DNA of 32,951 bases from a bacterium (GTDB lineage Bacteria; Bacillota_I; Bacilli_A; Mycoplasmatales; Mycoplasmoidaceae): contig JAGCPI010000035.1 of the NCBI GenBank assembly GCA_017645255.1, positions 1 through 32,951 on the forward strand, read 5' to 3'. Shown here piece after piece: positions 958-19,951 of this stretch (position 1 is its first letter; every line of letters starts with the position of its first letter). The position numbers were made by a program, and so were the translations under genes. Under the pieces are notes generated by a model. The model was not told where the DNA came from, did no database searches, and was given only the letters and a program-made list of their open reading frames with translations.

Positions 958-3900
958 ATGAAGAAAGCATTAGAAGAACGCTTGATGCGTTTGATCTATA
1001 CTAACAATAACGATAGTTGTACTAAAACTACTTTAATTACCAATAAACATTATGACTTATACAAGGTCGTAAGTGACGAAAATTTAAAGCAATTTATTAG
1101 CGGTGAAACCAATAAATTGCTCATCCAAAGTGCTGATAATTTAAATACCATTGAAAAAAATTTAAAGAGTGCCGCAAACTTTGAAGAATACCTTAAAATT
1201 TTGCAAGATAATTGCATTGAATTAAACGAAAAAAAAGTTGCAAATTTAACGAGTGATTTTGAAAAATACAGTAAGCAATATTTGCCTGATATCATTCGTT
1301 TATGCAATAACAAAAAACAACAATTTTTGCAATTAAATCGCACGGCCAAATCTTATGATGAAGATGAAGGGGTTTGACCCCTTTATTTTGCATATGGTTT
1401 TTTAACCGGAAAGTTAAATAGCGGAACTGGTCTACCAATTCCACTTCGGGCTCCAATTTTACTTTTTAGTGTGCAAATCGTAGATGAAAATAATCAACTG
1501 TTCATTAAGAAGTTAGATGAAAGTCCAGTTTGAAATGAAAAATTAGAAGTCGCAGTAAAACGAGCTTATAACTTAATCAAAGAAAACAAGCAAGGACTTG
1601 ATTTTGCTGATGATGAAAGTACTGAATTTACTTTAGCCACCATCATTCAAAAAATTGAAGATGTCATTGGCTATAAATTAAATCCTCTTGCCCAAACATT
1701 AATACCATTTGAAAAAATGACAGATGCCCAATTACGTGACATCACGGATTTACAAATTCAAGATTGCGCAGTACTTGGCTTATTTGAACCAAGTGGTGGG
1801 GCATTAAAAGTTGACTTGGAACAAATCATTGATGAATCGAAGAATGATAAAGATGAACATGACTTCTTTGATGAAAATAATAAACATATTACTGATAAAC
1901 ATATTCGGGAAGAAGTACTAAACAATAAAGCCAATATTTTTGAAATTAATCAACGACTAAACATTTATCAAAAGTACGCATTAGATAGTGCTTTGTGCCA
2001 AAATACGTTAATTTACGGGCCACCGGGAACGGGAAAATCAGAAGTTATTGCTAATATTATTTTCAATGCTTTAATTAATGGAAAAACATCCCTTCTAGTA
2101 TCAGAAAAACGGGCTGCACTTGATATTCTAACTTCTAGGTTAGGCAAGAAGTTATCGTTATTCAGCTTAAATCTTTACGATATGAAGGATAAAGAAGCCT
2201 TCTATAAAAAGATTAGTCAAATCGGTGATGTGCTTACTTCGAGTTGAATGTCTGATCGCAAAAAAGGAACTTTCAAAGGTAAAACTGCGATTGCACCTTT
2301 AAACATTAACCAAGAAAATTTAACTCCCCTAGCTGATTATGCAAAGTGGTATGAAGATTTACGAAACTTGATTAATAAACACTTGAATGTAGAAAAATAT
2401 GCCGATGGGGTGTTTGATTTCGATTATGCTGATTATGAAAAAATTAAACGTGAACTTGGTGATTCATTAATTCAAATCTGGCTAAATACCCAATATGATG
2501 ATGAAAAGGGTGAAAAGAAGTCATTGTTGCAATTATTTGATGATCAATTTAGTGAGTTTAATTTTATGGTTCCAAGTGATTTGTTTATCTCTTGGGATGA
2601 ATTTGTTAAATTCCTAAAAAAATACAAAATTGTTGAAACTACGCCTAATCCAAAGGATATTAAGCCCAACCTTGAACGGTGACTAAATCGGATTAATGCT
2701 AATAAAGATTTAGTTCAAGAATATCTAATTAGTAAAGTCCAAAATGATGAAATAATTAAACGCGTGCAAGAGTTTGAAAATGAATTTGCCCAAGATAAAT
2801 TATTTGTTGAATTCAATAAGAAAACGCTAAAAGAAAAGCGAAATTACTTAAAGGATGTTGATAAATTTATCACCTTCTATAATGATGTCATGGTGAAAAA
2901 TAGTCAACAAAACAAATCTTATGAAGAAATCGCAGAAATTGCGAATAAGGTTAAAGATTTCTTTAAAGAATACGCTGATTTAATCACGTTACTAAAAGAC
3001 ATTAATCTGCTTGATTTTGCGATTGATGAACGTGAACGACTACAAAGCTTTTTGAAATGATATGGTAATGATGCATTTAATGATGTTGAATCCCAAAAAG
3101 TAATGCTTGGGGAATTTGTGCTAAATAACACCATTGTCTATAGTAAAGAACAAATTGATAACAGTTATTTAACCATTAAAGACACCAAGGTGTTAGCAAA
3201 TAAGGCTGATAAAATCATTAAATTCTTCCGTGATTTTTTAGAAAATGAAGAAATCTTGTGCATCAAGGGAATTCAAGAATTATCACAATATCTTCCATTT
3301 TTTAAAGAAAACTTACATTTCTTTGAAGAACTAATTAAGAACCGTGAATTTTATGATAGTGATAAATTAATCAAGATGCGCGATAACATCGATTTACTAT
3401 CATTGCCATATTTACGAGATTTATACTTGCATAAATCACTATTTATCTTTGATTATCCAGCCATGGAAAGAGTTGACCAATTATCCAAATCCTGTCGGAT
3501 TGATGGAGGTCAATACCAACGTTTAAAGATTATTGAACTTTGAAACAAGATTTTAACAATTGAAACAAGATTTAATCAATTACATGGTTTTTCAGTTGAT
3601 GATGATATTAAGCAACTAAAGTTAGCAGAAGAAAAAAGTGCTCGCGATATTGAAGAACAAGCTTACAATGGTTTAGTTGAAACCATGCGTGATAATTTAT
3701 CAAGGTTAAAAGATGATGAAAAGCATAAATTAAGTGATATCTTCAAAATTGCCGGAAACAGTTCTAACTATCCATCAGTTGCGAAATTTGTTAAAACTTA
3801 TTATCCAATTTTACGTTACATTTTCCCAATTTTTGTTGGGCGACCAGAAAATGTTGCTACATTAGTTCCGTTTGTTAAGGATGAATTTGATTACGGAATT

Positions 3901-5217
3901 TTTGATGAAGCTAGTCAAATGTTTGTTGAACGCGCTTATCCATGCGTTTACCGCACGAAAATTAAAATTGTTTCTGGAGATGATAAACAATTGCGTCCTA
4001 CTTCCTTCTTCATGTCGCAAGTTCAATCAACTGAATATGATATTGACGATTTAGATAAAGTTGATTCATTACTAGAAAGAGCAAAATCAGCATGATGACC
4101 ATCATTTAACTTGCGTAACCACTATCGGAGTGATTCCAAAGAACTAGTTGAATTTAGTAATAAATACATTTATAACGATAGTTTGGAAGTAGCTACTAAG
4201 CAAGGATGCTTTGAAAAAGCCATTGAAGTAATTGATTGTGATGGAATCTTTGATGACGGAGTTAATGAAACTGAAGCCCATGAAGTTATTCGCCAACTAA
4301 AAAATAATTACATGAATTATGACCGGATTTTAGTTGTTTCATTTAACGCTAAACAAGCTGCATACATTGAAAGATTAATCAATGATGAATACAGTAAATT
4401 TGACAAGCGTTTACGTAGCATGCTTGACCATGGTCAAATCATTATAACCAATCTTGAAAACGTGCAAGGTAATGAAGGTGACTTAGTCATTTTAAGTGTG
4501 GCATACGGGAAATATGAAGATGGTCGCATTGCTACCAACTTTGGGCCTTTATTAACTGCGGGGGGTGCAAACCGGTTAAACGTTGCGATTACCCGGGCCC
4601 GCAAGAAAATGATTATCATCAAATCAATTCTTGGTACGCAAATCACGGTTACCAACAGTAAAAATAATAATGCTTTAATTTTTAAGCGGTTTATTGAATA
4701 CGCTGATACGCAAAAGAAAACTCGCAGTTTGAATGATCAATTAAACATGAATTTAGTTGATAATTCCCAAGCAAACTTGACTAATGATTTAAGTGATGTC
4801 AACGATGATGTAGTAAAAGAAATTTACAGCGAATTAATTAAGATTAACGACATCCAATCTAAGTACAAGATTATTCCTAATTTAAATATTTCTAACAAGC
4901 AAATTGCACTTACTATTTATAATAAAGAACAAGAAGAAATCGATTTATTAATCATTGTTGAAAAATGGAAGGAACTTCCAATGTTCCAAGATCTTATTGA
5001 GGATGTTGACCGGCAATTGTTCCTAGATGACCGGGGTTATCAAACTTGTCGGATTAAACACTTCGAATGATTTGTGGACCGAAATAAGATTATTTCCAAG
5101 ATTAAAAACTTATTGGAAAAAGCTCCAGAAGACCGCAACCCAATTAACGTTGCCGTCTTTGCTAAAGAATGATTAAACCGCGATCGAGATAAAAATAACA
5201 AAGGACATAGCAAATAA
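958..5217 (+). CDS. Large SF1 DNA/RNA helicase (DUF4011-like/AAA_11-AAA_12) with degenerate C-terminal nuclease fold
   Basis: The 1419-aa product reads through TGA (Trp) codons, for example at 1375, 2686, 3058, 3541 and 5068. The N-terminus (about 140-260) resembles the DUF4011 module: WPLYFAYGFLTG..., then RAPILLFSV and AVLGLFEPSGG. A Q-like motif precedes Walker A GPPGTGKS at residues 354-361. A long coiled, charged insert follows, then Walker B IFDEASQ (about 981), SGDDKQLRP (about 1005), LRNHYRS, NVQGNEGDLV and the arginine motif NVAITRARKK. This is the UPF1-like SF1 order. The last 120 residues match the Vsr/MTES_1575-type fold (DRQLFLDDRGYQ, CRIKHFEWFVDR) but lack the usual acidic/lysine active site. 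It is probably the MG140-type helicase of mycoplasmas. The role is likely nucleic-acid remodelling or repair; the substrate is unknown. SD TAGGAAA lies before ATG 958. Confidence 0.85.
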
Positions 5218-5660
5218 TGAATGATTTAAATGATCTTTCGTTCGAAGAATTAATTAAAAAAATGAACGAAATTCAACAAATTGAAATTAACTGACGGGAA
5301 AGCAAAAATCCTAGTCAATTACGAAACTCAATTCGAAATTTAGGATTTGATGATTTGAACTACTTAGAAGAAAACGTTGATGATCCTAAATCACTTGCAA
5401 TGATTATCCAACTTTACTATTGAAAATTCTTTGCAGTGATTAACATGCGGGTCAAAGACATGATTATGAGTTTTAAAAATGACCCATCCAAGTTGATGGA
5501 ATTACAACAAAACTTTAAGAAAATTTTTAATATCGATTTTTCCGATTTAGACTTTGGCAAAATGTTTGGTGGGGGTGCTGAAGATTATGATGTTAAACCC
5601 CAATCTGAACCAAAAGATAAGCCAAAAGAAAGCACTGAACACAATAAAAAATTGAACTAG
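5217..5660 (+). CDS. 147-aa acidic hypothetical protein coupled to the helicase
   Basis: The ATG at 5217 shares its A with the TAA stop of the helicase (TAATG), so translation is probably coupled. The product includes TGA-coded Trp residues at 5292 and 5421. It is rich in charged residues, with predicted helices in the first 110 residues (NDLNDLSFEELIKKMNEIQQ, then a segment ending YYWKFFAVI). A GMFGGG glycine turn comes next, followed by a disordered Lys/Glu/Pro tail. There is no signal peptide and no membrane helix. I do not recognise the family. Overlap with the helicase gene suggests a partner protein of that enzyme, which is inference from position only. Confidence 0.75.
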
Positions 5661-5753: not shown

Positions 5754-8700
5754 ATGGAAGATAATAAAGATTCGAAAGAAAAAACGGATTCAAAGTATAA
5801 CTATTTTGAAGAACCGCTATTGTTTAAAAATTTCCGGAAGAATCCAATTAATATTAACGGTACATGAAACGTTGTATACGTTGTAAATAATAAAGTAAAA
5901 CCTGATTCCATTTGGGAAGCAGATTATCACGTTTCAAATAATTTTATTCAACAAGGTGATAATACTTACCTAACGAACGAAAAAGTAAATGAAATTAATG
6001 CGTTCCTAGATAAATATTTTCCATTTGTTGATCCAGTTTATGTCCAAAAAGATGCAGTAGTATTCGACAAAATTTTAGCTACTGCTCATCCTTCTGAATC
6101 AGTCGCTACCAATTCTATTGATTCAAGTCAAACTAAAGCAAATCAAACCAAGTCACGCCAAAAAGAATTTGAAAAATTGGTCTTTCCTCAATACACTGCG
6201 ACCCCAAAGCCAGTCGATGTTGATTTAACGTACACTACTTTAGTTGATTATCCAGACACGATTTTAGTTGAACCAGCAATTGAAAACTTCATTCAAGTTA
6301 GTTGAAAGAAATCAAAACGTGCTAATGAAGAAGCAATTAGCAATTTGGCTAATTATGATCAAATTGACAAAGGCATGTATCACTATCCACAAATTGTCGA
6401 TATTGCGTATGCAAAACCACATGTCAATGCTAATAGTCAACTAACTACTGAAACCTTCCCTGATGTCGTTGACATTAAACCAAGTGACATCATTACTGAT
6501 GAATTCATCTTGAAGATGGCACGGGATATTTGAGATTCAACCAAGATTGAAAGAAATGAATATCCACAAGCACTTGACTTTAGTAATTGAAAAGAACCTC
6601 AACCAATTCCATTCATTAATCCAAAAGATCTTGAAATCAATTTTGAAGTAGAACCAAAGAAACCTGCGTTAGTTTACCCATGACAAATGGTTGTTGACTT
6701 CAAAGAACCTGTTCCAACCCCAATTGCTAACCCAAGTGATGTTGAAATTAACTTTGAAGTAGAACCAAAGAAACCTGCTTTAATCTATCCATGGCAAATG
6801 GCTGTTGACTACGTTGTTCCAAAAGAAGTTCCAACCACTTACCCAAGTGAATTAAGCATTGAACGCTCTGACATCATTACAGATGATTTTATTGTTGACT
6901 TAGCACATGACATTATCGATTCAATGGTGGAAAAGAGTGAATTTCCACAAGCACTTGATTTAAGTAACCTTCAAGTTGCACCTACTCCAATTTTAGTTAG
7001 TGATCCATCTGACATTGATGTTCAATTGAATTTTGATGAATTCAAGAAGGAACCAATTAAAGCATCTTATCCAACCATCGTACGCTTAAACCGAGCTAGC
7101 GAAGTAGTTGATCCATTCATTCTTGATTTTGCTAAAGCATATCATGAAGCACAAGAAGCTAAGAAACCAGCTTTAGTTTATCCATGACAAATGGTTGTTG
7201 ACTTCAAAGAACCTGCTACAGTTAAACCAAGAGCAGTTGATATCAACTTTGAAGTAGAACCAAAGAAACCTGCCCTTGTCTATCCATGACAAATGGAAGT
7301 TGATTATCATGAACCATCATTAGCAAATCCAAAGGCAGTTGAAATCAATTTTGAAATAGAAGCACCAAAGCCAGCATTAGTTTATCCATGACAAATGGAA
7401 GTTGACTTCAAAGAACCTGCTGCAGTTAAACCAAAAGCAGTTGAAATTAACTTTGAAGTAGAACCAAAGAAACCTGCCCTTGTTTATCCATGACAAATGG
7501 AAGTTGACTTTGAAATGCCAGAACCTGTTAAGGAAGTTCCTATTACTGATCCTAAGGCATTGGAAATTGAATTTGAAATGCCAGAACCAGTTAAACAAAT
7601 TCCACTTACCAACCCTGATACTTTAGAAGTTAACTTTGAAATGCCAGAACCTGCCAAGGAAGTTCCTATTACTGATCCTAAGGCATTGGAAATTGAATTT
7701 GAAGTTCCACAAGCTGCCCCACTTCCAACCATCACCTATCCAGATGCAATGGATATCACTCCAGGTGAACAAATGGTTGATCCATTTGTGATCAGCATGC
7801 TAAAGCAACAAAAAGCAAAGCTTACTGCAAAAGTTATTCCAACTTATCCTTCCCAAATTGATTTATACAATGCCGCAATTACTGCTAAGGCAAAGAGTGA
7901 AAAGAAGCAACGCGAAAAAACCATGCTTTGCTATCCAGATATTTTGAGTCTTACTCCAAACAAAAACGTTTTGATTGATGAACCATTAATCAAGACAGTT
8001 ATCGTGGAAAAAGAAGTAATGGTTCCAGTTGAAAAGAAGGTTTACATTCCAGTTGAAATCAACAAACCTTATGAAGTTGTTAAAGAAGTAAATGTACCAG
8101 TATTTGTTGATAAGCCAGTATTTGTTGATAAGCCAATTGAAATCATTAAAGATGAACCAGTTGAAATCACCAAAGAAGTAGTAGTTGAAAAACCAGTTGA
8201 AGTCACAAAGGAAGTAGTGGTTGAAAAGCCAATCCAAATTGTTAAAGAAATTTATAAAGATTTTGAACCAAATAAACCAGTAAATTCTTCTCACACCCAA
8301 ACTCAACTAAATAATCAACTAGCTGATCAAAATACTCAATCTTCTGTTGCAAATCAAACTAATCAAACTGCTGAAGTTAAAGAACCAAGTCATGAAAGTG
8401 GTGCGAAGCAAATAGTTCCTCATGAAGAAGCAAAATCCCATCAAGATGAATTTAATGCTCGTAAACCACTAGAACATTCTGAAGTTGCATCTAGTGAACC
8501 AAGTAGTGCTAGTAAACAATCATCGCAAGTAGCAAGTGAAATAAATGCAACTGAACACGAAGAAGTTGCTAAAAATCCTTCCCCAATTGAAGTAGATGCT
8601 AAGTTTGTCTATGGAGAACCAGTTAACAGTCGTTGCATTAGGGTTCCATCTGATCATAAGACTGGTACGATGCCAATTGATATTGATGGAATTAATAATC

Positions 8701-9662
8701 CCGATTCCAAACCACAAGAAGTAGTTAAACATCCTAGCGAACCAGTTGTTGAACCAATGACAACTCCAACTCCAGTAAGTGTTAACTTAAATTTGGAACC
8801 AATGACAATTCCAGAAAGCATTGCCGTAAAACCAAGTGCTCCAACGCAACCTGAAACTGTCGAAGTAGAACCAAGTAAACCAACTCATCCCGAAAGCATT
8901 GAAGTTAAACCAGCTGAAAAAGAAGTAGTAAAACCTGAACCAGTTGAAATTAAAAAAGAAGTACCGGTAACTGCTAATGAACAAACTCCAACTGCTCATC
9001 CTGAAGTAATTGAAGTTACTCCAGCTGCTAATAAGCAAAGTTCTCAACAAGTTCAAATTCCACAAGTTCAAACCAGTGGTAGTCCAATTAACTTAACCAT
9101 TAATGTTAACTATATTGAACCACAACACCAAACGGTTCAACCAACTCCAGTTCAACCAACTCAAACTCCAGTTCCAACTCCTAACTTTACCATTGAAAAA
9201 ACTACTCCAGGTATTCCACAAATCGAAGGAGTAAAACCTACTGTTCAAGAAGCTAAATTGCTTGAATCTCATCCTGAACCTCAACCTGAAAAGAAGGAAG
9301 AACCAAAAGTTGAATTAAAGGAACCAACTCCAGTCATTATTCCAGTTGTTCAAGAACCTATCATCATTGATAAGTCTAAAGACGAAGTGGCAAAAGAAGA
9401 AGTTGAAGAAGTTGAAGATGCCTTTGATGAATTAGATGATGATGGTGAAGAAGAACCAAACCAAAAAGTTTATAAACCATACATCACTCTATATAACGGT
9501 AACCGTCCAATGTCTTCTGACCACATGTTAAACCGTTACGGTCTTGATAAGAAGCAATTAGGTAAAGTGGAACAAAAACCAAAGAATCTAAAAGCAAAGC
9601 AATCGAAAGCTAAAGCACCTAAAGCATCCAAAGCAACTGGTGTGCAAGCAAAAAAGAAATAA
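5754..9662 (+). CDS. Very large repeat-built Pro/Glu/Val-rich protein, candidate cytoskeletal/cytadherence-accessory protein
   Basis: The 1302-aa reading frame is continuous when TGA is read as Trp. Order of regions: a unique aromatic-rich N-terminus (1-130; NGTWNVVYVV, DSIWEADYHV); two copies of a helical module beginning SDIITD(E/D)FI (about 243 and 375); YPWQM motifs at 308, 345, 476, 510, 544 and 578, the last four exactly 34 residues apart; 21-residue FEMPEPV units (586-648); a Val/Lys/Glu/Pro repeat zone (742-830); a low-complexity Gln/Ser/Thr zone; PESIEVKP-type units; an acidic cluster (EEVEEVEDAFDELDDDGEEE); a compact segment YKPYITLYNG...NRYGLDKKQ; and a Lys/Ala-rich basic tail. No signal peptide or transmembrane segment is visible. 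Composition and architecture recall HMW1/HMW3/P65-type terminal-organelle proteins, but I see no convincing EAGR box. Function is inferred, not shown. The SD is poor (AGGTAG region). A strong terminator follows, so it is a single-gene unit. Confidence 0.8.
7179..7508 (+). repeat. 102-bp (34-aa) tandem repeats in the large protein
   Basis: The codons for YPWQM start at 7179, 7281, 7383 and 7485, exactly 102 bp apart, giving three full units and the start of a fourth. Each unit runs YPWQM(E/V)VD...EP...(K/R)AV(E/D)INFE(V/I)E...PKPALV or KKPALV. Two looser copies lie upstream (6675 and 6786). The Trp codon is TGA in all copies except TGG at 6792. Confidence 0.9.
7509..7700 (+). repeat. 63-bp (21-aa) tandem repeats in the large protein
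   Basis: Three units begin with TTT at 7509, 7572 and 7635, and a fourth start at 7698 diverges. The protein unit is FEMPEPVKEVPITDPKALEIE. Units 1 and 3 differ at only 2 of 63 bases (GTT versus GCC), while unit 2 is more diverged. This implies duplication as a 126-bp pair or gene conversion. Confidence 0.9.
8097..8228 (+). repeat. 18-bp and 36-bp tandem repeats in the large protein
   Basis: Two perfect 18-bp copies (8097-8114 and 8115-8132) encode PVFVDK twice. Two 36-bp copies (8157-8192 and 8193-8228) encode PVE(I/V)TKEVVVEK. The surrounding residues 742-830 follow the same loose P-V/I-x-V-x-K/E rhythm, so the short unit probably expanded stepwise. Confidence 0.85.
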
Positions 9663-11869: not shown

Positions 11870-12868
11870 ATGAAACAATCACATCACCAAGAATATACTA
11901 AAGAATTAGATCATAACAAAAAAGAAGAAATTGCTGCTCTATTAAAAAATCAGGGTAGTAAATCAAAATTTCGAAGCCGCATCCAATTAGTTTGATTGTA
12001 CATTATTGCTAGTGCAATCATGCTAATTGCTTTATTGTCTACTAACTATTTAGTATATGATCAAACTTCAACTTATTTTGTTCCGGTTATTGTCTGCACA
12101 ATTTTAGCATTTATTGGGTATGCTATTTATTTCTGACGCTGGTATGTTAACTACAAAAGCGTTAAAGAATATGTTCAATCATATTGATTCAGGTGGTATT
12201 TTTTAGTTTTAGCGTTAACTTTAAGTGCATTTGTCATTAGTTTTATTTGCACTGTAACTTTAGTGGGGCAAAAAGAAAGTGCTGGTTTGTCTTTTTTAGG
12301 TCAACGGGGATTACCAATCTATAATGCCATTTTATGTGGAATTATTTTTGATATTTTGTTTACTATTGTAGCAAGTGCATTAGATACTTATGTTATCTAT
12401 CACATTGAAGTTGATTTACAAAAACTAGTAGCTGAATACGAAGAAAATCAAATTGATAGTTTAAAAGAAAAGATTAGAGCGGAAGCTAATAAAGTTAAAG
12501 AAGAAAAACAAGCTAATCAAAATCAAGCAAGTGATGAAAAAGATGTTGCTAATAAGCAAAACGCTTTATCACAAGCAGAAATTGATGCATTGTTGCACAA
12601 AAATTCTTTAGACAATAAATCAAAAGCAATTAACACTGACATTTCTAATCAATCAACTAAACAAACTGAAAACCAAACAAAGATTGCACAACATGATGCT
12701 ACGCAAGAATTAAAGGATAATAAGCAACGTCCTTTAACCCAAAAAGAAATTGATGAATTGCTAAAGAAGAACTCTAATTTTTACAAAGATGAAACTTCTA
12801 CTAACTCTCATGATGATGAAAAAAATAGTTCATTAGATCATAATGAAAAACACGGAACCAAAAAGTAA
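11870..12868 (+). CDS. Four-helix membrane protein with repeated (L/K)xxEIDxLL motifs
   Basis: The 332-aa product has a charged N-tail, then predicted membrane helices at about residues 41-58, 69-89, 106-130 and 149-171. After these comes a long soluble, Gln/Asn/Lys-rich tail with coiled-coil tendency. The tail holds LSQAEIDALLHKN and LTQKEIDELLKKN, and the N-tail holds KKEEIAALLKN. All three are variants of one short helical motif, and the first is strikingly like the N-terminal peptide of FliM. The position after nusB matches the MG028-type membrane protein of the M. pneumoniae group; the function is not known to me. TGA codons at 11993, 12134 and 12185 encode Trp. It ends 26 nt inside the mtaB gene. 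Confidence 0.8.
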
Positions 12869-17910: not shown

Positions 17911-19071
17911 TTATTTAATATATTCAAAGATTTGTAATTGGTTAGCATCATTAAAAGTTTTTTGTAAATTGCTTGCACTATATTGCCCATAGTAACGCGA
18001 ATGATGATAACACGATAAAAAACACATTGGGTATACTTGCGATTGCATGTTGTAAACATTTAAGTTAGGAACCAAATTATCAGTTTGAGACCAATGCATA
18101 ATTTGATTAATTCGATTTAATTGCTTATTATTACTAATTCCTAAGTATTTGCTGAGATCAAAGAAATTGTAATTAGTTTGCATTCAATCACCACTAAACG
18201 TGTAACTAGCTGGTAAAGCATAATTATTTTCATCTCCACTTAAACTGCTGTTTAAAGTTTGAGCAGAATTTAAGTAATCATTAATGAAGAATTGATTAAA
18301 AGTTTGGTACCATTTTTGACTATTACTTTTATCAAAGTGATTAATTAAATGATTATTAGTAAATAATAATTCTTTATTAAATTTAATGTATCATCCTCCA
18401 TAAACATTAAACATTAAATCACTATTATTTACGTTTAAGTTGTAATTTACTAAACAAGGAGCAATTGTAGCGTTATTAATTGTAATTAAACTACTAACTT
18501 GTGCGACGTCATTAACTGCTTGATTTACTTTAATCACATTATTAATGACCGGGGCGGCATTATAAGTAGTAATTAATTGATAACTTAAATTTAAGGTGTT
18601 ATCACTTAACTGATAGTTAACATCTTTTACTTGGTAAGATGCATTAACTGCTCATAATTTATTATTAGCAAAATTATTATCAGTTAATTCATTTAACGAA
18701 TATAAATAATTTTGGCCATAAACCCAAATGTGATTTTGTTTTTTTAATACATCATTAATATTTTGCTTTCAGTAAGTTAAATCAGTATTAATTACTTCAT
18801 TAAATCCATTTTGTTTAATTTCATTATTAAAATAAGAAGCTCAATTATTTCAGGCACTGTCTTTATTAGTTGGGTTAATTGATAATTGGGTATTGTTAGT
18901 TTGGTAAACTGTAGTTGATAAATTTTGGTAATTATCATTTGGATTTACTTGTGAAGTTTGATTGCAAGAACATGAAACAATGCTACAAACACTAATTACA
19001 CTAATTGCACTTGTTAATAAAAAACCAAAGAAATATTTTTTGTAATGATGCTTAGTTTGTTTTTTCATCAT
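17911..19071 (-). CDS. Asn-rich putative lipoprotein
   Basis: The 386-aa product starts MMKKQTKHHYKK, followed by a hydrophobic stretch and a lipobox-like IVSC with Cys at about residue 34 and a second Cys two residues later (SCSCNQTS). This indicates a surface lipoprotein processed by LspA. The mature part is very rich in Asn, Gln, Tyr and Leu, with many TGA-coded Trp, and lacks a domain I recognise. ATG ATG at 19071/19068 gives two possible starts, both inside the end of the exonuclease gene; no SD is seen. Its placement between an exonuclease and uvrA is odd and suggests an insertion into a DNA-repair operon or simple co-transcription. Confidence 0.8.
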
Positions 19072-19951
19072 GATCAAAATAGGAATAAAAAGCACTAAAA
19101 CCATCTTGGTAAACCTTATCTTTAATTTGGTTTACTTCAATTGGCTTGGCTTTAAATAAGTTAATGTTGTGATTAGTAAATAATGTGCAATTAATGGTGG
19201 CAATGTTTTTAAATAAATCACAATCATCTTTCCCTTTTTCTAATAAATCCCTCGTTTTTGGGGAGATGTCAGCAAGATGGGCATAAATGTCACTTACCCC
19301 TCCTGGATATTTAATTAATAATTTTTTAGCAGTGGTAGGTCCAATCCCTTTAATCCCATGGTAAAAATCAGAATTATCACCTGCTAGTGCCTTATAATCA
19401 ATCATTAGTTTTGGCATAAAGCCATATTCTTCTTTAAAACTAGCTTCATCTTCAGTTTGCATTTTGCTAATTCCTTTTTGGAACATGCTAACCTGAATGT
19501 TTGGATCAATTAATTGCAATAAATCATGATCACTAGTATAAATGCTACATTTAATGTCATCTTTAGATGCACATGTAGCAAAACTACCAATTAAATCATC
19601 AGCTTCATAACCTGGTTTTGCTAATAAAACAAACCCAAAGGCACTAAAAATTTTGCGAATCGTTGGTAATAATTCCACTAATTCATCCGGCATTGGCTTG
19701 CGGTTGCTTTTGTATGCTTCAAACTGCTGCTTGCGAATTAATTTTTCTTTTGAATCAAAAGCAGCAATTTTAAAGTCTCACTTCGTATTTCATACTAATT
19801 TAAAGCAAATGGAATAAAGCATTTTAATCGTAATGCGTTGCACATCAACATGATTGCTGCTTTGGCTATCATCAGCTTTTTTATTGATTGATAATGAAGC
19901 ATAATAAAGGCGGTAAATTAATGAATTAGCGTCAATTAAGATTGCATTCAT
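19052..19951 (-). CDS. 5'-3' exonuclease (PolA N-terminal domain type)
   Basis: The 299-aa stand-alone flap/5'-3' exonuclease removes RNA primers and flaps. It corresponds to the N-terminal domain of DNA polymerase I, with no polymerase domain. Motifs: ILIDANSLIYRLYYA at the start, AAFDSKEKLIRKQQFEAYKSNRKPMP, then GYEADDLIGSFA and YTSDHDLLQL. The helix-hairpin-helix region follows: YKALAGDNSDFYHGIKGIG, PTTAKKLL. The metal-binding acidic residues are present. The start at 19951 lies 2 nt after the dnaE stop; TGA at about 19780 and 19789 encodes Trp. Pairing with dnaE matches MG261-MG262 as I recall, and suggests Okazaki-fragment processing. Confidence 0.92.

Follow-up and report, generated by a model that had tools for sequence, protein, structure and literature searches.

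The window analysed here (the whole stretch of 32,951 nucleotides; contig JAGCPI010000035.1 of GenBank assembly GCA_017645255.1, Mycoplasmoidaceae) is a piece of a mollicute chromosome that carries greA, a DUF4011 helicase gene, a 147-aa open reading frame (ORF), a gene for a 1302-aa protein, an alpha/beta hydrolase gene, efp and nusB, as well as an MtaB-type gene, uvrA, a 5'-3' exonuclease gene, dnaE, nrnA, thiI and an MPN551-family gene. The 1302-aa protein is the subject of this report. Its ORF stays open under genetic code 4, with nine TGA codons read as Trp, and is broken into pieces by translation table 11; the code 4 frame, together with an architecture common to five metagenome relatives, bears out the 1302-aa protein described in the first-pass annotation of this DNA. 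That annotation had read the protein as a structural scaffold, possibly lineage-specific, and as a candidate cytoskeletal or terminal-organelle component. As set out below, the best conserved segment of the protein suggests an epiplastin-type membrane skeleton rather than a terminal organelle.

Architecture and conservation of the 1302-aa protein

A search covering some 5.8 billion proteins, with scoring restricted to the 7993 candidates that had the most words in common, returned six rows, namely five proteins from ENA metagenome contigs (P0001-P0005) and a low-complexity match (P0006). In a multiple alignment, the five relatives match the window protein over its full length, at 53-57% identity, and the best local BLASTP pieces to them cover 38-99%. 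A scan of 320 genomes of the order with the whole profile found no true relative (G101 shares V/E/K repeats only, and G137 is unrelated); profiles of the N-terminal domain and of the C-terminal 193 residues gave 10 and 9 rows, respectively, at E<=0.1 in the same genomes, which does not exceed the chance expectation. All 19 rows look like short frames or unrelated proteins, among them a P-type ATPase and phosphoglycerate kinases as judged by eye from the sequence. Across the database search and these 320 genomes, close relatives are confined to metagenome contigs. A scan of genome contigs with two N-terminal patterns only also gave no relative, which is a weak negative, as is that of a viral scan; tblastn of plasmids and phages with the conserved core described below gave nothing, which says little because BLAST masks simple repeats.

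The protein is acidic (isoelectric point (pI) 4.78) and contains 11.3% Pro. It starts with MEDNKDSKEK, and neither a signal peptide, a lipobox nor a membrane helix was found by a hydropathy scan and by reading the N-terminus by eye; the highest Kyte-Doolittle hydropathy over 19 residues is 1.05, in agreement with the earlier statement that a secretion signal and membrane helix are lacking. Family searches gave no match above cut-off, and Pfam gave none at E<=1 for any of the six family members. Prefoldin was rejected as a weak match below both curated cut-offs (TIGR00293, 14.3 of 53.9 bits; PF02996, 13.2 of 23.2 bits), and enzyme, adhesin and PDB identities were rejected as unconvincing. The N-terminal structure comparison envisaged earlier was run with a profile of residues 1-186 against PDB; its best E value, 0.082, is not convincing. 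The family searches likewise gave no confident match to an enzyme or secreted adhesin family, the outcome that the first-pass annotation had named as refuting its reading. The structural, cytosolic and lineage-specific parts of that annotation thus fit a protein that has no location signals, no enzyme or adhesin family and, in these searches, no close relatives outside metagenome contigs.

With regard to its anatomy (Table 1), the tandem arrays of 34-aa YPWQM, 21-aa FEMPEPV and 12-aa PVEVTKEVVVEK units reported earlier are present at the DNA level, as are the duplicated SDIITDxFI module (two copies, at residues 244 and 372), the acidic cluster and the basic tail. The description of these as several unrelated repeat families does not hold, as a single P-x-x-h-x-h unit underlies the YPWQM, FEMPEPV and YP stretches and the C-terminal HPESIEV stretch alike; the 34-aa and 21-aa arrays arise from its local amplification in tandem. 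This unit occurs 33 times in residues 136-740, compared to 7.2 +/- 2.4 (maximum 16) in 2000 shuffles, and eight times in residues 831-1110, compared to 1.6 +/- 1.3 (maximum 6); residues 1-135 contain none. Since the pattern was picked after seeing the sequence, these shuffle tests measure the strength of the repeat rather than its discovery. Alternating hydrophobicity in residues 206-656 also exceeds that of shuffles (beta moment z 3.8).

Conservation was assessed, segment by segment, as the identity of the window protein to each of the five relatives. Beyond the N-terminal domain, identity falls to 61-64% in residues 136-205 and 40-43% in the hypervariable residues 206-656, where 89-149 of 451 positions are gapped, and is 48-51% in residues 657-740. 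It reaches its highest value, 92-93% without a gap, in residues 741-813 (flanks 28-51%), and is 28-38% in residues 814-1110, 54-58% in residues 1111-1216 and 83-87% in residues 1217-1302. Three conserved blocks (the N-terminal domain, the central core and the C-terminal tail) are thus separated by two freely varying stretches, which are built largely from the P-x-x-h-x-h unit.

Table 1. Features of the 1302-aa protein gene, neighbouring genes in the window, and proteins with similar repeats in other genomes (positions refer to the window unless a locus is named; residues are those of the 1302-aa protein)
Feature	Positions	Strand	Description or basis
1302-aa protein gene, stop included	5754..9662	+	ATG start, open with code 4 (TGA=Trp)
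N-terminal domain, residues 1-135	5754..6158	+	unique, without repeats; 78-81% identical to five relatives
P-x-x-h-x-h array, residues 136-740	6159..7973	+	short helix-like SDIITDxFI/VDPFI modules between; unit count compared to shuffles
34-aa YPWQM tandem array	7154..7510	+	DNA tandem repeat, 102 bp x 3.5
21-aa FEMPEPV tandem array	7498..7703	+	DNA tandem repeat, 63 bp x 3.3
Epiplastin-like acid-base-dyad (ABD) core, residues 741-830	7974..8243	+	composition, conservation
12-aa PVEVTKEVVVEK repeat	8155..8231	+	36 bp x 2.1; lengthens ABD; extra unit missing in five relatives
Pro/Glu-rich linker, residues 831-1216	8244..9401	+	more P-x-x-h-x-h units; 13.7% Pro, 13% Glu
Tandem DNA array	8810-8912		39 bp x 2.6; inside Pro/Glu-rich linker
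Acidic cluster, residues 1217-1236	9402..9461	+	60% Glu+Asp; mostly invariant among relatives
Basic C-terminal tail, residues 1237-1302	9462..9659	+	carries KVYKPYITLYNGNRPMSS; pI 10.4
1419-aa DUF4011/superfamily 1 helicase	958-5217	+	C-terminal REase_MTES_1575-like stretch, under cut-off
147-aa ORF	5217-5660	+	no family match above cut-off; start overlaps helicase stop; ends 93 bases before the 1302-aa gene
332-aa membrane protein	11870-12868	+	tail with two similar motifs, LSQAEIDALLHKN and LTQKEIDELLKKN
397-aa protein	17911-19104	-	lipobox-like N-terminus SVCSIVSCSCNQ; between uvrA and 5'-3' exonuclease gene; no NCBIfam match
Tail-anchored ABD protein	L164 5968-7812	-	N-domain, ABD repeats, C-terminal membrane helix
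Tail-anchored ABD proteins	L180 832-2250; L179 955-2280		N-domain, ABD repeats, C-terminal membrane helix
ABD protein	L182 649-2637 (G251)		relatives in G250, G253, G255, G256
ABD protein	L184 613-2553 (G253)		Tyr-rich acidic repeat tail YNDDQAYDNNYSYQEEQTY
V/E/K/P repeat, then basic tail	L185 (G299), contig end	-	gene cut by contig end

The conserved core and V/E/K/P repeats in other proteins

While the first-pass annotation had correctly identified the 12-aa array within the V/E/K/P stretch, it missed that the stretch is longer (about residues 741-830) and that no other part of the protein is as well conserved. The sequence of this core is IDEPLIKTVIVEKEVMVPVEKKVYIPVEINKPYEVVKEVNVPVFVDKPVFVDKPIEIIKDEPVEITKEVVVEKPVEVTKEVVVEKPIQIV; it consists of 27.8% V, 12.2% I (V+I, 40%), 1.1% L and 35.6% charged residues, with G, A and S at 0% and T at 3.3%, has a net charge of -6, and holds 12 acid-base dyads per 100 residues, with flanking V/I judged by eye. 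Its longest Pro-free run is 13 residues and its helix moment z is -0.7. Epiplastins are membrane-skeleton proteins of unicellular eukaryotes that comprise the alveolins (IMC proteins) and articulins; the sections drawn on here of Goodenough et al. (2018, PMC6212826) define their acid-base-dyad (ABD) domain by acid-base dyads flanked by V/I, with means of 25 +/- 7% V, 9 +/- 4% I, 2 +/- 2% L and 35 +/- 6% charged residues, G and A nearly excluded, and S and T low. The core lies within about one standard deviation (SD) of the epiplastin means for V, I, L, V+I, charged residues, E, D, G, A, S, T and net charge. It thus has the frequent dyads, the enrichment in V/I, the charge carried by E and K, the low L and the near-zero G, A and S of these domains, and is placed, as in epiplastins, medially between a longer head (residues 1-740) and tail (residues 831-1302) that are distinct from it. 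As the protein is known from sequence only, it is at most "epiplastin-like" in the usage of the cited sections (PMC6212826). Bacterial proteins with strings of ABDs are also described there, in the form of the articulin-like proteins of Caulobacter, which, compared by description, differ from the window protein in their walled host and in their numerous VPV and VYV modules.

A window detector with limits taken from the published epiplastin composition marked residues 733-857 of the 1302-aa protein and the corresponding segment of each of the five relatives. Of 2678 background ORFs from the loci retrieved for this analysis (stop-to-stop, at least 100 aa, deduplicated), 7 passed. Five of them carry plain V/E/K/P repeats and come from three distinct places, namely L162, L164 (also represented by the overlapping L070) and L062 (in two frames); the other two (L127, with five windows, and L129, with four) are weak and do not look ABD-like. 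A database search with the core alone (345 candidates) returned P0001-P0005, followed by P0006 (E 2.7e-15) and P0055 (E 0.44). P0006, the nearest match outside the family, is a protein with an Mcp5_PH domain from the basidiomycete yeast Kockovaella imperatae, a genus that we take to belong to Tremellales. Epiplastin-like proteins are recorded in Basidiomycota, mostly Tremellales, in the sections drawn on of Goodenough et al. (2018, PMC6212826). In P0055, which comes from a metagenome, V/E/K/P repeats occur in a protein with a hydrophobic, signal-like N-terminus.

Within the order, a profile of mollicute ABDs matched 11 of the 320 genomes at E<=0.01, including G101, G250 and G013, which are themselves among the profile rows. 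Frames were read in all 11 matched genomes and hold V/E/K/P repeats in 10, in otherwise unrelated proteins; the row in G273 is GreA and was rejected. Two kinds of protein recur. In G101, G139 and G161, an N-terminal domain and an ABD are followed by a membrane helix at the C-terminus, where hydropathy peaks at 2.70-2.96; the N-terminal domains of these tail-anchored proteins are 46% identical between L164 and L180, and 18% to L179, and their kinship with that of the window family was rejected (probability 0.3). In G013 (Malacoplasma MAG2; partly masked), G250, G251, G253, G255 and G256, ABD repeats come after a helical-looking N-terminal region, and several of these Malacoplasma-type proteins have an acidic or Tyr-rich end; five of the N-terminal regions were aligned, and L181 (G256) starts inside. 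These proteins (L162, L177, L181-L184) resemble the window protein in their ABD repeats, in the acidic C-termini of several and in belonging to wall-less members of the same order, but have a different N-terminal region. The L184 tail YNDDQAYDNNYSYQEEQTY recalls the acidic region of P65 with its DPN(Q)AY motif, and G251 holds a 1017-aa MetRS frame (L198). The Pfam model IMCp (PF12314) matched 2 of the 320 genomes, G250 and G173; the G250 frame scored 36 bits with its neighbours, but 18.0 in a second scoring, under the cut-off of 21.1, and the G173 match, a lipase-like lipoprotein, was rejected as chance. In 14 control genomes, IMCp matched in Caulobacter and Methanocaldococcus, above the cut-off in one.

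Membrane skeleton, terminal organelle or convergent spacer

We lean slightly towards reading the 1302-aa protein as a lineage-specific structural scaffold in the cytosol of a wall-less cell, possibly a component of a membrane skeleton. The P-x-x-h-x-h array and the Pro/Glu-rich linker would act as extended spacers of variable length, the V/I/E/K/P core (residues 741-830) would be a self-association element that forms beta-rich intermolecular contacts, as proposed for the epiplastin ABD, and the N-terminal domain and acidic-then-basic C-terminus may serve for docking, either with partner proteins or at the inner membrane face; many copies could together form a network or gel and so support the naked membrane or a polar structure. 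The sequence itself shows the architecture, the single repeat unit, the concentration of conservation in the N-terminal domain, the ABD and the C-terminal tail, the epiplastin-like composition and the ABD-type repeats in unrelated proteins of the order, whereas self-association, beta structure, a place under the membrane and a function in cell shape are inferred. Like epiplastins, the protein is predicted to be cytosolic, and the wall-less cell surface is a plausible setting for such a skeleton.

A number of observations weigh against an epiplastin-type skeleton. The core has 0% R and 14.4% K, compared to published ABD means (PMC6212826, sections as above) of 7 +/- 3 and 9 +/- 4, which places K 1.35 SD high; low R and high K might be expected from an AT-rich genome. 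It is short (about 90 aa) and contains two VPV modules, under the threshold of more than three that the same source gives for the articulin subclass, and its preference for beta structure is weak (moment z 1.7). IMCp matches neither the core at E<=10 nor the whole protein at E<=1; the basidiomycete protein P0006 has no match to it either. The window protein further differs from epiplastins in being bacterial, in having a repeat array as its head and in a cell location that is predicted from sequence. V/E/K/P repeats in P0055, with its signal-like N-terminus, mean that the repeat does not fix cell location; 309 of the 320 genomes of the order have no ABD match; and hhalign of the window family with the Malacoplasma-type proteins found similarity in the ABD only, over 45 low-complexity columns (probability 70, E 4e-5). 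The broader proposal that several wall-less lineages (the window family, the Malacoplasma-type family and the tail-anchored family) build an epiplastin-type skeleton under the membrane from beta-rich V/E/K/P domains in unrelated proteins seems improbable to us at present.

What speaks most for caution is that V/E/K/P repeats arise easily, so that a simple repeat could have been reached by convergence. The core might be a convergent low-complexity spacer with no functional link to epiplastins, and the protein a tether or linker that serves some other purpose in the cytosol; this is a serious rival, which we judge to be the less probable account though the strongest of the alternatives. Such repeats do recur in the unrelated proteins P0006, P0055, L062, L162, L164 and L185, and the 36-bp duplication indicates that the core itself grows by slippage, but 73 residues of it are kept gap-free at 92-93% identity in five relatives in which the neighbouring repeats are free to vary, which argues for selection on the exact sequence rather than on spacer length. 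Placing the protein in a terminal or attachment organelle, as a large, acidic, Pro-rich and mostly disordered polar scaffold like HMW1, HMW3 or P65, appears unlikely; as such a component would itself be one form of cytosolic scaffold, our confidence in the scaffold overlaps with that in the organelle. The resemblance is one of class. HMW1, HMW3, P65 and PlpA are likewise extended or very large, acidic, Pro-rich and cytosolic; acidic Pro-rich and disordered regions are described for P65, HMW1, HMW3, P30 and P200 in the sections drawn on of PMC11940719 and PMC4923136; and the EAGR-box ORFs of five Mycoplasmoides-group genomes (eight sense-strand rows) are giant (853-2531 aa), acidic (pI 4.1-4.8) and relatively Pro-rich (3.3-8.7%). 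The Pro content of the window protein tops that of all 423 background ORFs of at least 400 aa (maximum 8.8%; a set enriched for EAGR loci).

Size, acidity and Pro-richness, on which the first-pass annotation had based the comparison with terminal-organelle proteins, thus stand, but membership of that group is not supported. The 1302-aa protein has no EAGR box by a model (PF16713) that matches in five of nine genomes searched, and BLASTP against the EAGR-box ORFs of the five genomes found nothing alignable (best E 0.068; HMW3 and P65 are not in that set). No attachment-organelle gene was recognised among the window ORFs scanned, and the neighbour of the MPN551-family gene, an EAGR giant in M. 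testudinis (L003), M. imitans (L034) and M. bradburyae (L043), is orf371 in the window. In an MPN551-family tree of 27 rows (the window, 19 of 48 database matches and seven named loci), the window falls with metagenome sequences and one Mycoplasmataceae metagenome-assembled genome in a fully supported five-row branch among Mycoplasmoidaceae, apart from M. alvi, M. testudinis, M. amphoriforme and M. imitans; the tree does not settle how these branches join. Finally, mycoplasma surface proteins commonly carry repeat arrays of varying length, which would fit an adhesin at the cell surface or a secreted protein built from repeats; the N-terminal start MEDNKDSKEK and the lack of a signal peptide, a lipobox and a membrane helix in the window protein make this very improbable.

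To our knowledge, apart from the attachment-organelle proteins that some of them possess, it is an open question what keeps mollicutes without a wall and MreB in shape. Mycoplasma is described as lacking both in the part of PMC9663586 drawn on here, and Goodenough et al. (PMC6212826, sections as above) did not expect epiplasts in prokaryotes because these are almost invariably walled, a premise to which wall-less mollicutes are an exception. If the broader proposal of ABD skeletons in several lineages were correct, these would serve wall-less bacteria in the way that alveolins and articulins serve protists. The conserved core, together with the tail-anchored ABD proteins in three other genomes of the order, provides a concrete set of genes to test. 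Among the literature matches listed, none joined mycoplasmas with epiplastins, alveolins or articulins; papers with both terms were, by title, on Toxoplasma.

Neighbouring genes in the window

A relative of the alpha/beta hydrolase gene is present at E<=1e-10 in 44 of the 320 genomes of the order. In 20 of these regions examined, no run of window neighbours lies alongside it, except for an MtaB relative in L126 and L140; L140 also carries an efp-nusB-mtaB run elsewhere. The 147-aa ORF between the helicase gene and the 1302-aa gene is possibly co-transcribed. The helicase is a candidate anti-phage defence gene; it matches the PADLOC models PDC-S37 (E 9.5e-90) and Hhe (E 1.5e-48), and NCBIfam ProA and Hhe models far below their cut-offs. 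With regard to the 332-aa membrane protein, the two motifs in its tail resemble the N-terminal peptide of FliM, and the protein has a weak match to NCBIfam fliM_switch (E 0.043).

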